Assembly (NCBI RefSeq): GCF_900537175.1 | Contig: NZ_LS999835.1 | Span: 124,001-188,000 of the forward strand | Length of the DNA: 64,000 nucleotides | Origin: Lentilitoribacter sp. Alg239-R112 | GTDB taxonomy: Bacteria > Pseudomonadota > Alphaproteobacteria > Rhizobiales > Rhizobiaceae | Direction of reading: 5' to 3' | Shown: positions 60,449 through 64,000 of the stretch, in pieces | Numbering within the stretch: position 1 is the stretch's first letter | Layout: each line of letters opens with the position of its first letter | Notes under the pieces: generated by a model | The model's input: only the letters and a program-made list of their open reading frames with translations | Told to the model about the DNA's origin: nothing | Databases searched by the model: none | Program-made: the position numbers and the translations under genes

Positions 60449-61255
60449 CTAACCATCGATTTTTGCAGCAATTGCCGCAATTGCTTTTTGGTATACGCCT
60501 GCTGCATTCCAAGCTTGTATCGCACGGTAGTTAGTTTGACCGGGCTGATACCCCCCACCTTTTCTCCACCCTTTACCACGCAGAAAATTAGCGGTTGAGG
60601 CAAGAGCATCAAATTTATTGGATAGATCAACGCGGCGGTTTGCGTCGCCATTTGCGCCGAATTTTAAAACATTGCTTGGCAGAAATTGGGTCTGTCCGAT
60701 TTCACCATGAGCAGCACCCCTAAAATTCGGGCTAATCCAACCTTTTTGGATGAGTGTTAAAAGCGCATAAAGTTCCTTTGTGAAGAATGCTGATCTTCGG
60801 CAATCATAGGAGAGTGTAGCAACCGCTGACACGGTGTGTTGGTTTCCTGTAAATGAGCCGAAGCCACTTTCCATACCCCAAATTGCAATAAGTACACCTG
60901 ACGGTACGCCGTATTTCCGTTCTAGTTTACCAAAGAAACTCGCATTTTGCTTCTTAAGTCGTTTGCCTTTGGAGATGATGGAAGCGGCCCCGCGCTTTTT
61001 CATGAACTGATTAAACGTAAGTTTAAAGCTGCGTTGGTTTCGATCAAGGCTGATCGTCTTTTTAGCGTAGCTGGCTTTCGCGAAAGCTCTATCGAGTGTT
61101 TTCTTGGAGATTCCGTTGCGCACGGCTTCTTTTTTAAATTGTGTAACCCAATTCGAGAAATTTGCTGATGTATTAGAGCATTTAGCTGCGAATGCTGGAT
61201 TTGCTGAACTCAGGCCAATCGCTAAAACAGCGGCAATTGTATAAGCGCGGATCAT
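60449..61255 (-). CDS. Lytic murein transglycosylase, MltB type
   Basis: A periplasmic peptidoglycan transglycosylase of 268 residues with a signal peptide (MIRAYTIAAVLAIGLSSANP, then AFA). The catalytic Glu129 is in VLIAIWGMESGFGSFTGN; GQTQFLPSNVLKFGANGD and GWRKGGGYQPGQTNYRAIQAWNAAGVYQKAI are family motifs. There is no lipobox, so it is soluble rather than outer-membrane anchored, and no C-terminal peptidoglycan-binding domain. It follows the asd terminator. Confidence 0.92.
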   Translation of the reverse strand: MIRAYTIAAVLAIGLSSANPAFAAKCSNTSANFSNWVTQFKKEAVRNGISKKTLDRAFAKASYAKKTISLDRNQRSFKLTFNQFMKKRGAASIISKGKRLKKQNASFFGKLERKYGVPSGVLIAIWGMESGFGSFTGNQHTVSAVATLSYDCRRSAFFTKELYALLTLIQKGWISPNFRGAAHGEIGQTQFLPSNVLKFGANGDANRRVDLSNKFDALASTANFLRGKGWRKGGGYQPGQTNYRAIQAWNAAGVYQKAIAAIAAKIDG

Positions 61256-61316
61256 GAAGCTTCTCTCTATCTAAATTGATACGAATCAAATGATAGATCA
61301 AAGATCATATAATCGC

Positions 61317-61345
61317 AAAAAACGCCGGATGTTGCCATCCAGCGC
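61317..61345 (-). terminator. Rho-independent terminator of asd
   Basis: On the minus strand a GC-rich ten-base stem (complement of 61336-61345 with 61322-61331, two G-T wobbles) closes a four-base loop and is followed by six T residues (complement of 61317-61322). It lies about 25 bases after the asd stop. Confidence 0.8.
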
Positions 61346-61371
61346 TTTCGTTTATTCGGCATAAACTCAAT

Positions 61372-62394
61372 CTACTTTGCTTTTAGTAATCCACGATTAA
61401 TCAGAAGTTCAGCGATTTGAATTGTGTTGAGTGCTGCACCTTTGCGCAAGTTATCTGAAACCACCCAAAGATTAAGGCCATTTTCAACCGTTGCATCTTC
61501 ACGAATTCGAGAGATGTAAGTCGCATCATCGCCTGCACATTCTACAGGTGTAATGTATCCACCATCTTCATGCTTGTCGATGACCAAACAACCCGGAGCT
61601 TCACGCAAGATATTACGTGCGTCATCCGCTAAAAGTTCGCTTTCAAATTCGACATTGACAGATTCAGCATGACCAATAAACACAGGCACGCGAACCGCTG
61701 TACAAGTGACCTTGATTTTAGGATCAAGCATCTTTTTAGTTTCAGCCAGAACTTTCCATTCTTCCTTTGTGTAGCCATCTTCCATGAAGCTATCGATATG
61801 AGGAATAACGTTAAACGCAATGCGTTTTGTAAACACATTGTTTTCAATCGGATCGGCGACAAAAACAGCGCGACTTTGATTGAATAGCTCATCCATTCCG
61901 TCTTTACCGGCGCCAGAAACAGACTGGTAAGTTGAAACAACAAGACGCTTGATTTTTGCAACATCATGCAAAGGCTTTAGCGCGACAACCAATTGTGCCG
62001 TTGAGCAATTTGGGTTGGCGATGATGTTTTTCTTGCGAAAACCATCAATTGCATCTGGATTCACTTCCGGAACGATCAATGGAACTTCTGAATCGTAACG
62101 CCATGCCGATGAATTATCGATGACAATGCAGCCTTGTGCGCCAATTTTTGGAGACATCTTCTTGGAGACAGAACCACCAGCTGACATAAGGCAGATATCC
62201 GTGTTTGAAAAATCGTAGTTCTCCAGATTTTTTACGACAAGCGTTTTATCACCGTAAGAGACTTCTTTACCGACTGATCGAGATGATGCTAGCGGGATGA
62301 TTTCCGATGCTGGGAAATTACGCTCTTCGAGAATATTGAGCATTTCTCTGCCCACATTGCCGGTAGCGCCAGCGATTGCAATTTTAAAACTCAT
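61372..62394 (-). CDS. asd: Aspartate-semialdehyde dehydrogenase
   Basis: Asd reduces aspartyl phosphate to aspartate semialdehyde, the branch point to lysine/diaminopimelate, threonine and methionine. The 340-residue protein has the NADP loop IAGATGNVGREM and the catalytic Cys130 in IIANPNCSTAQL; the later YQSVSGAGKDGMDEL segment is also conserved. An AGGAT lies about ten bases before the ATG. Upstream, on the same strand, is a 39-codon frame ending in Thr, Met and Lys codons, followed by RNA that can cover this ribosome-binding site. Confidence 0.96.
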   Translation of the reverse strand: MSFKIAIAGATGNVGREMLNILEERNFPASEIIPLASSRSVGKEVSYGDKTLVVKNLENYDFSNTDICLMSAGGSVSKKMSPKIGAQGCIVIDNSSAWRYDSEVPLIVPEVNPDAIDGFRKKNIIANPNCSTAQLVVALKPLHDVAKIKRLVVSTYQSVSGAGKDGMDELFNQSRAVFVADPIENNVFTKRIAFNVIPHIDSFMEDGYTKEEWKVLAETKKMLDPKIKVTCTAVRVPVFIGHAESVNVEFESELLADDARNILREAPGCLVIDKHEDGGYITPVECAGDDATYISRIREDATVENGLNLWVVSDNLRKGAALNTIQIAELLINRGLLKAK

Positions 62395-62487
62395 TTTTTG
62401 GTTTATCCTGTCTCTCTCCGCTTTGGTCCACGAAAACTCGTGTCCTTCATCCCCGACTATCGGGGAGAGTGCGACAGACGAGAGGTG
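62395..62487 (-). promoter_or_regulatory. Candidate translational attenuator over the asd RBS
   Basis: On the minus strand the RNA between the small frame and asd can form two local hairpins: CCCCGA/TCGGGG (62451-62465, plus coordinates) and CACGA/TCGTG (62429-62442). A long-range stem can join CTGTC and CTCTC (complements of 62473-62477 and 62465-62469) with GAGAG and GACAG (complements of 62414-62418 and 62408-62412). The last strand runs into the AGGAT of asd, so the fold would hide it. A ribosome halted at the end of the upstream frame would cover the CTGTC/CTCTC strand and free the site. The fold was drawn by eye. Confidence 0.45.
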
Positions 62488-62607
62488 TTAGGTTGTTTTT
62501 GTCGTCTTGGTCATTGTCTGATTGATTTGAAAAGAGCGCACAGATGCATCACTTACACAAAGTGCAAGTTGAAATGCTTCCAAATTTTGAGCTTCATAAA
62601 AGTTCAT
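62488..62607 (-). CDS. Candidate Thr/Met/Lys leader peptide upstream of asd
   Basis: A 39-codon frame starts at ATG 62607 with a good AGGAAAAG ribosome-binding site seven or so bases upstream. It encodes MNFYEAQNLEAFQLALCVSD, then ASVRSFQINQ, and ends TMTKTTKTT: the last nine codons (62491-62517) are only Thr (six), Lys (two) and Met (one). These are the end products of the pathway that Asd serves. It lies 93 bases before asd on the same strand. It is too short for usual gene callers. An alternative is an ordinary small protein or a chance frame. Confidence 0.5.
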   Translation of the reverse strand: MNFYEAQNLEAFQLALCVSDASVRSFQINQTMTKTTKTT

Positions 62608-62617
62608 GTCTTTTCCT

Positions 62618-62639
62618 ATCGGGGCGGTAATGCCCCGAT
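62618..62639 (-). repeat. Inverted repeat before the asd leader frame
   Basis: ATCGGGGC (62618-62625) and GCCCCGAT (62632-62639) form a perfect eight-base stem with a six-base loop. It lies between leuB and the small frame and directly abuts that frame's ribosome-binding site on the minus strand. There is no T-run in the leuB direction, so it may be a weak leuB terminator or part of the leader control. Confidence 0.6.
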
Positions 62640-62692
62640 TTGCTTTCAGAGTCAATTGACCTTACAGCGTAAGTCCTCAATTCTTGGTTAAA

Positions 62693-63802
62693 TTAGCCAA
62701 GTAGAGACGTGTATTCAGCCAAAATCGCATCACCCATTTCAGATGTTGTGATTTTTGTCATGCCGTCCGTCATGATATCGCCTGTGCGTTTGCCAGTCTC
62801 TAAAACATTGGCAATAGCTTTTTCGACGCGATCAGCATCTTCGATCATGTTAAATGAATATCTTAGGCACATCGCAAATGATGAGATCATAGCAATCGGG
62901 TTTGCAATGCCTTGACCAGCAATATCAGGCGCTGAGCCATGAACGGGTTCGTAAAGTGCTTTGCGACTACCTGTTTGAGCATCTGGTGCACCCAATGAAG
63001 CAGATGGTAACATGCCGAGTGAACCTGTTAGCATTGCTGCAATATCAGACAGCATATCACCAAACAGGTTATCTGTAACGATCACATCAAATTGTTTCGG
63101 CCAGCGAACGAGTTGCATTCCACCTGCATCTGCAAGCATATGACTTAGCTCAACATCAGAATATTTAGCTTTGTGAGTAGCTGTGACAACCTCGTTCCAA
63201 AGAACACCAGATTTCATCACATTACGCTTTTCCATAGAGCAGACTTTATTTTGACGTGTACGTGCAAGTTCAAATGCAACGCCTGCAATCCGGTCGATTT
63301 CATATGTGTCATAAACTTGCGTATCAATTGCACGTTTCTGTCCATCACCAAGATCATGAATTTCCTTTGGTTCACCAAAGTAAACGCCGCCTGTAAGCTC
63401 ACGAACGATTAAAATATCGAGGCCTTCCACAACATCAGCTTTCAATGATGAGGAAGCCGCTAGCGCGGGATAACAAATCGCGGGGCGTAGGTTCGCAAAA
63501 AGTTCCATGTCTTTACGTAAGCGTAACAATCCTGCTTCTGGGCGAACATCGTAAGGCACATCATCCCATTTTGGCCCACCAACAGCGCCAAAGAGCACAG
63601 CATCGGCTGCCATGGCCTTTTCCATGTCGGCATCAGAAATAGACTGGCCGTGCGCATCATAGGCTGAGCCGCCAACAAGACCCTCGTCGGTTTCAAAATT
63701 TGAACCTTGCTTTTCGTTCATAAGGGTAATGAATTTACGAACTTCGTTCATGGCTTCTGGGCCAATACCATCGCCAGGAAGAAGGAAGAGTTTATTTGTC
63801 AT
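62693..63802 (-). CDS. leuB: 3-isopropylmalate dehydrogenase
   Basis: LeuB oxidatively decarboxylates 3-isopropylmalate in leucine synthesis. The 369-residue protein has [53 protein letters not shown] and the metal-binding [27 protein letters not shown]. It lies upstream of asd on the same strand, separated by the leader region, and 14 bases after the RidA-like gene. Confidence 0.97.
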
Positions 63803-63816
63803 AATTTGCCTGTCTT

Positions 63817-64000
63817 TTAGCTCCGTTTAAGAGCGGTTACTTCAATTTCAAATTTTATTTCTGGTTTGATGAGATCGGCAATAATCATCGTCGCTGCTGG
63901 ACGTATCCCGTCAAAATATTGCCCCAAAAGCGGAAACACTATATCGACAAATTTTTGATCTGTTACGATATAATTGGCCCGAACAATATCTGCCCGTTCA
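63817..64000 (-). CDS. RidA-family protein, 5' end cut by the window edge
   Basis: Only the C-terminal 60 codons are inside the window. The translated end reads [20 protein letters not shown], continues to [16 protein letters not shown] and closes [14 protein letters not shown], which matches the C terminus of Rid/YER057c/UK114 proteins. RidA deaminates reactive enamine/imine intermediates; other Rid subfamilies have unknown roles. The Arg of RPAATM is the carboxylate-binding arginine of the family. It precedes leuB by 14 bases and is probably cotranscribed. Confidence 0.85.

Follow-up and report, generated by a model that had tools for sequence, protein, structure and literature searches.

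In this study, we analysed a stretch of 64,000 nucleotides (nt) from Lentilitoribacter sp. Alg239-R112 (contig NZ_LS999835.1, positions 124,001 to 188,000), referred to here as the window, and focused on a 39-codon open reading frame (ORF) that precedes asd, the gene for aspartate-semialdehyde dehydrogenase. The results indicated that this frame is likely to be the leader peptide of a ribosome-mediated attenuator of asd, which would sense charged tRNA-Thr and tRNA-Lys and would operate without an intrinsic terminator. On comparative evidence, the frame is real, conserved, and very likely functional, and because a threonine (Thr)/lysine (Lys) frame and rival RNA folds are both kept across many relatives, the cell probably reads its Thr and Lys supply at this leader. 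An earlier note on this DNA (the original prediction) had described the frame, its ribosome-binding site, its TMTKTTKTT tail, and its position 93 nt before asd, all of which were confirmed in the sequence. The leader and asd are laid out as follows.

62608..62617, minus strand: ribosome-binding site of the leader, AGGAAAAG, directly before its ATG (from the sequence)
62488..62607, minus strand: leader peptide frame, 39 codons plus TAA, with the ATG at 62607 and the stop TAA at 62490-62488
62517-62491, minus strand: Thr/Lys-rich leader tail TMTKTTKTT, the last nine codons (Thr-Met-Thr-Lys-Thr-Thr-Lys-Thr-Thr)
62406..62409, minus strand: asd Shine-Dalgarno sequence AGGA, 11 nt before the ATG
61372..62394, minus strand: asd, aspartate-semialdehyde dehydrogenase (NCBIfam NF011456, E 7.9e-155; TIGR01296), with its ATG at 62394-62392, 93 nt from the leader stop

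For each ORF of at least 150 codons, we considered every frame with a start codon that ended 20-330 nt upstream, and took the number of Thr and Lys residues among its final 12 codons as the score. The window has 54 ORFs of this length; asd reached 8, and all others scored 5 or less. Around asd in 80 named relatives (L047-L126), none of 740 ORFs exceeded 6 save one entry, which was asd itself in a shorter locus (L075). Dinucleotide shuffles scored 7 in 0 of 1200 and 1 of 2400 trials, together 1 of 3600. The pattern KTTKTT had two matches in the organism's own genome, at asd and at C1:437495, and no leader was conspicuous at the latter on a cursory look at the surrounding ORF list.

When the 39 residues of the window leader were searched as protein against its own genome and those of 100 relatives, the leader itself was the sole match at E <0.1. 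Since the leader body diverges too fast for a direct peptide search, the comparison was anchored on asd instead. The named relatives were 80 loci kept of 574, and other loci came from the best 30 of 60 matches. The 60 order-level regions were not a random draw but were hand-picked, with one to three per family (nine from the window's own family), from the matches listed among 243 matching genomes, and the 40 class-level regions were picked from 101 matching genomes. All three same-genus genomes kept a Thr/Lys-tailed frame with the tail IAKTAIKTTKTT and its stop 90 nt from asd (vs 93 nt in the window); the first half of their frame differed from the window leader. The commonest tail in the family was SKTKAKTTTKTV or near it, and some genera carried a tail such as MTTIKTKTTI at the same position. 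Of the 30 family-level regions (L017-L046, the window's own among them), 23 scored at least 7 before asd, as did 72 of the 80 named family loci, which partly overlap those 30. This score was also reached in 25 of 60 order-level regions; outside the window's family the count was 19 of 51, corresponding to 15 of the 39 other families sampled. Beyond the order, Thr/Lys tails preceded asd in 4 of the 40 class-level regions, all of which came from other orders. An ATG with a Shine-Dalgarno-like motif was found for 90 of 106 leaders in relatives, 73 of these 90 being 38-41 codons long, and the leader body diverged strongly between relatives. For L022, L047, and L110, putative starts at a Met 10-15 codons from the end could yield frames with little beyond the tail. 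Regions where asd lacked a Thr/Lys-tailed frame included L162 and L163 (f35), L129 (f4), and L179 (f1/g100).

We then compared the residues of the tail with those of the body in 47 representatives. The last 12 residues were 45% Thr and 20% Lys, compared with 8% and 3% in the body, figures that are partly built in because the representatives, mutually unlike and tail-bearing, were chosen by Thr and Lys, with family loci admitted at 4 or more of 12. All four Thr codons and both Lys codons occurred in the tails. Methionine (Met) made up 2.1% of tail positions vs 4.1% of the body, and once Thr and Lys are set aside, it accounted for 12 of 198 residues in the tail vs 40 of 871 in the body. Isoleucine (Ile), counted in the same way, gave 23 of 198 vs 47 of 871, and a minor part for Ile in sensing is possible. 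The original prediction had proposed Thr, Lys, and Met as the residues sensed, with conservation in relatives as the check. Thr and Lys were borne out by the conserved tail, in all three congeners and 23 of 30 family regions, but Met, without a clear tail signal, was unsupported as a sensed residue.

The RNA between the leader tail and the asd start contains strands that can pair in mutually exclusive ways.

62502..62507, minus strand: strand 1, AGACGA within the Lys-Thr codons, which can pair with strand 2
62472..62483, minus strand: strand 2, TCTCGTCTGTCG, shortly 3' of the stop codon, whose UCGUCU (62481-62476) pairs with strand 1
62451..62462, minus strand: strand 3, CGATAGTCGGGG, candidate antisequestor/antiterminator and 3' arm of hairpin P2, which pairs with strand 2
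62450..62466, minus strand: hairpin P2, TCCCCGA-TAG-TCGGGGA, mutually exclusive with the 2:3 helix
62464..62469, minus strand: 5' strand of helix P1, CTCTCC (from sequence and alignment)
62414..62419, minus strand: 3' strand of helix P1, GGAGAG, adjoining the asd ribosome-binding site

Strand 2 can pair either with the tail (1:2) or with strand 3 (2:3). The 2:3 helix of the window comprises 11 base pairs (bp) with one U-U mismatch (-14.2 kcal/mol), and its median length in relatives was 14 bp. By a weak criterion, at least 4 strand-3 bases paired in the P2 fold as well, the two structures had strand 3 in common in 85 of 85 sequences. The letters of 2:3 changed between relatives with the pairing kept, as GGCC/GGCC (L021), GGCU/AGCC (L029), and GCUUGU/ACAAGC (L044), and with a bulge as GCUUU/AAAGC (L046); within the window's genus, a strand-2 U and strand-3 A become C and G. 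The structure set consisted of 110 asd loci (L017-L126) minus four, giving 106, and removal of near-duplicates at 88% identity left 54. The four left out were L023, L033, and L038, where no Thr/Lys tail was found (the asd match of L033 begins without Met), and L065, which has an ambiguous base and a tail score of 6.

To compare species without an alignment, we used a swap test, in which the pairing of cognate strands is set against that of strands swapped between species. Order-level regions entered the swap, duplex, and start-opening tests only with a score of at least 6, so these tests are silent on tail-less regions; L180, of the same genus as L030, was excluded, and the best duplex was not always the intended 2:3 helix (in L031 it took up part of P2). 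With 43 representatives, the z values were -6.7 for 2:3, -3.8 for P2, -2.4 for P1, and -0.6 for 1:2, and the control pairings gave -1.3 (1:3), -1.8 (1:SD, strand 1 with the asd start region), and 0.0 (2:SD). A second clustering gave for 2:3 -7.7 overall, -5.3 within the family, and -5.3 outside it; for P2 the values were -3.0, -1.7, and -1.9, and for P1 -2.4, -0.5, and -1.8. The 1:2 pairing reached -0.7 overall and -2.2 within the family (p 0.017), and the controls ranged from -1.6 to +1.5.

In the 54-sequence alignment, 88% of cells of the 2:3 helix were paired and 7 of its 10 pairs had changed on both sides. On every measure, 0 to 1 of 500 shuffles reached the 2:3 value, and sliding the strands lowered every measure save pairs changed on both sides, where a slide of +1 tied. 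P2 lay above all 500 shuffles for cells paired, cells changed, and covariation score, and above 477 and 475 on two other measures. In the family alignment, 1:2 exceeded all 500 on the same three measures, and 495 and 492 on the other two. These shuffles ignore relatedness, which the swap tests on reduced sets answer only partly. The region carries features of an attenuator of the trp/thr/his type, namely a frame of product codons, the exclusive helices 1:2 (within the family) and 2:3, and a third helix sharing strand 3 by the weak criterion above. The comparison supports the frame, the Thr/Lys tail, the choice between 2:3 and P2, and, within the family, 1:2. We also observed a third hairpin between P2 and P1, at 62446-62426 (AGGACACGAGTTTTCGTGGAC); many relatives' folds among those listed have a counterpart of it with a different sequence.

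From these elements we infer where the ribosome stands, which way asd responds, and how the output step works. When Thr and Lys are plentiful, the ribosome would read the tail, stop at UAA, and cover at least the first half of strand 2; P2 would then form, and P2 with P1 would keep asd low. If either Thr or Lys runs short, the ribosome would halt within the tail, with strand 1 masked and strand 2 free; a ribosome halted at least four codons before the stop would occupy these positions. The free strand 2 would pair with strand 3, undoing P2 and enclosing the CTCTCC strand in a loop, and asd would be expressed. If the leader is untranslated, 1:2 would form and asd would stay low. Apart from the missing U run, this sequence of steps is that of classical attenuation. 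A terminating ribosome reaches about 12 nt past the first base of the stop codon, and in the commonest family form it would cover nearly all of strand 2; a ribosome footprint of about 30 nt is quoted in PMC12218461.

As the output of the switch, we lean towards ribosome access to the asd start. Opening of the start was cheaper with 2:3 enforced in 54 of 85 sequences, and hiding of the start fits the kept complementarity of GGAGAG and CTCTCC; as an output, it is weakly supported. The idea of a fold that hides the asd start came from the original prediction, and the kept complementarity speaks for it, whereas the start-opening result in independent representatives and the near invariance of P1, both given below, do not.

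Several findings weigh against the proposed attenuator or parts of it. The leader is not universal: 7 of 30 family-level regions scored below 7 (L023, L025, L031, L033, L036, L038, and L039), and 28 of 60 order-level regions scored below 6. In the swap tests, the control pairing 1:SD reached p 0.038, P2 within the family gave p 0.053, 1:2 was without support outside the family (z +1.7), and for P1 p was 0.009 in the whole order and 0.30 in the family alone. In the alignment, P1 was paired in 92% of cells, and 11 to 155 of 500 shuffles matched it; because it is nearly invariant, it has hardly any covariation support. In the window, a terminating ribosome would cover only about half of strand 2, which is located 7-18 nt past the first base of the stop codon. 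Among the 43 independent representatives, only 20 had a cheaper start opening with 2:3 (p 0.39), and in the window the costs were 5.0 vs 5.2 kcal/mol, no difference. Finally, the evidence for this organism is comparative, and translation is known from Sinorhizobium meliloti (PMC10117765).

The same Thr/Lys switch could instead act through Rho-dependent transcription termination, which would change the output and leave the sensor as it is. Without 2:3, C-rich stretches between the stop codon and asd would stay open for Rho. We consider this output rather unlikely and rank it next after start-site access because there is no U tract. It agrees with the finding that 45 of 47 representatives contain no U run and with the absence of a consistent change in start-site opening, and an attenuator linked to an upstream ORF, presumably of the Rho type, has been proposed in S. 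meliloti (PMC12218461). The GGAGAG that adjoins the asd start and matches CTCTCC is kept in the family, which speaks against Rho.

Attenuation by an intrinsic terminator, as in Escherichia coli thr, with P2 or a later hairpin as the terminator, is improbable. No run of 6 of 8 U was found between the stop codon and asd in the window or in 45 of 47 representatives, and a terminator scan found none there on the minus strand; the lack of a U-tract claimed by the original prediction is thereby upheld, and this alternative was rejected for the window. What favours it comes from outside the order, from the locus L227. At L227 558-700 on the plus strand, a Thr/Lys leader with a possible 2:3 helix comes before a hairpin of 10 bp and the T run that follows it (590-614), and the 5' arm of this hairpin can pair with the stretch after the leader stop codon. 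The scan of L227 found two terminator-like sites, compared with 0.5 expected. By its sequence, L227 would be the intrinsic-terminator form of the same asd control. An Rfam Trp_leader match on the minus strand of L227 (585-678; E 0.22) was far under the gathering score and was taken as chance. In L156, from one family of the order, a U-rich stretch lies between leader and asd, 21-29 nt before asd.

The original prediction had placed the switch in a stem in which CTGTC and CTCTC pair with GAGAG and GACAG, the upstream strand being covered by the stalled ribosome. The letters are present in the window (CTGTC 62477-62473, CTCTCC 62469-62464, GGAGAG 62419-62414, GACAG 62412-62408, and AGGA 62409-62406) and are complementary. 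In all three same-genus relatives, however, CTGTC has become CTGCC while GACAG is unchanged. Moreover, a ribosome halted on the tail would leave both CTGTC and CTCTCC free, as they are located 13-17 nt and 21-26 nt, respectively, past the first base of the stop codon. The CTGTC/GACAG stem was rejected, and we regard the switch as first proposed as very improbable; the supported switch is 2:3 in competition with P2 and the tail.

It is equally improbable that the small ORF encodes a protein with its own function, of which the Thr/Lys tail would be a property. Such a role would be favoured by a Western blot from S. meliloti, in which a tagged fusion of the small protein SEP5 appeared in the soluble S100 fraction only (PMC10117765). 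Against it, the body diverges strongly, and the frames of L022, L047, and L110 are among those readable as little beyond the tail. Within the family, the codons of the tail take part in pairing with strand 2 as well. The window peptide had no Pfam or NCBIfam match above cut-off, and the leader peptides of five relatives had no NCBIfam match above cut-off. That the frame is a chance low-complexity ORF, as the A-rich Thr/Lys codons of the window leader might suggest, is scarcely credible given the score, shuffle, conservation, and 2:3 covariation results, and is disfavoured because the frame is kept across families with different codons.

The upstream neighbour of the leader is leuB.

63802-62693, minus strand: leuB (LeuB by NCBIfam TIGR00169)

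Within 3 kb upstream (less in L075), leuB was present in 10 of 80 named loci and was not found in 70, indicating that the leader travels with asd and not with leuB. Between leuB and the leader, directly before the leader ribosome-binding site, lies a GC-rich hairpin (62618-62639), whose stem is identical in the three same-genus genomes (L018-L020). On the plus strand the scan flagged it as terminator-like, with 1 site found against 1.2 expected, and it possibly belongs to the end of leuB or to control of leader translation. An Rfam CRISPR-DR16 match on the plus strand at 62620-62637 (E 0.97) was far under the gathering score and was taken as chance.

Asd feeds the synthesis of lysine, threonine, methionine, isoleucine, and cell-wall diaminopimelate. 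If the proposed attenuator is true, a leader that gauges Thr and Lys together would provide simple multi-product control of this branch point; we know of no other case in which lysine codons serve as an attenuator signal. Tentatively, we envisage an old two-input leader attenuator, reading Thr and Lys at the branch-point enzyme Asd, across the Hyphomicrobiales and sporadic in other Alphaproteobacteria, whose switch (2:3 vs P2) would have been kept and whose output would have shifted, from an intrinsic terminator as in L227 to hiding of the start site or Rho within the order. For the plant symbionts and other bacteria of this large group, the proposal supplies a structure that can be tested, and it describes an RNA element unmatched at gathering score by any Rfam 15 family in the scanned stretches (window 61000-64000 and 13 relatives' loci).

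The leader-peptide idea for asd is already in print. SEP5 of S. meliloti 2011 is translated and has been proposed as a possible leader peptide (Hadjeras et al. 2023, PMC10117765), whereas the original prediction had named no described asd attenuator from Rhizobiales. Like the present leader, it is a Thr/Lys-tailed frame in the asd 5' untranslated region, and we take it as the same element because the Sinorhizobium loci L060, L061, and L064 carry tails with 6 Thr and 3 Lys. The passages on SEP5 in that account contain no RNA structure or mechanism and call SEP5 conserved only in Sinorhizobium (PMC10117765), whereas the asd leader described here occurs in many families, with a proposed switch, and widens that range. 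This spread and the 2:3/P2 switch with its covariation appear to be new, according to a literature search that did not include the main survey of proteobacterial attenuators (Vitreschak et al. 2004); the lack of Met support and the correction of the earlier stem are further additions of this work. The asd RNA motif RF01732 shares with the leader its naming after asd and belongs to Lactobacillales (PMC2864571). Neither RF01732 nor the lysine riboswitch gave a match at E <=1 in the window (61000-64000) or at E <=0.5 in the 13 relatives' loci. In the thr operon attenuator of E. coli, thrL contains 8 Thr and 4 Ile (PMC12925634). It resembles the asd leader in its richness in end-product codons and its alternative RNA helices, and differs in its gene (thrABC), in reading Thr and Ile instead of Thr and Lys, and in its intrinsic terminator. 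The trpL (rnTrpL) attenuator of S. meliloti has an intrinsic terminator. An amino-acid leader peptide attenuator from the same order (PMC10117765), it differs from the asd leader in reading tryptophan, in its 14-codon leaderless frame, and in the gene that it controls.
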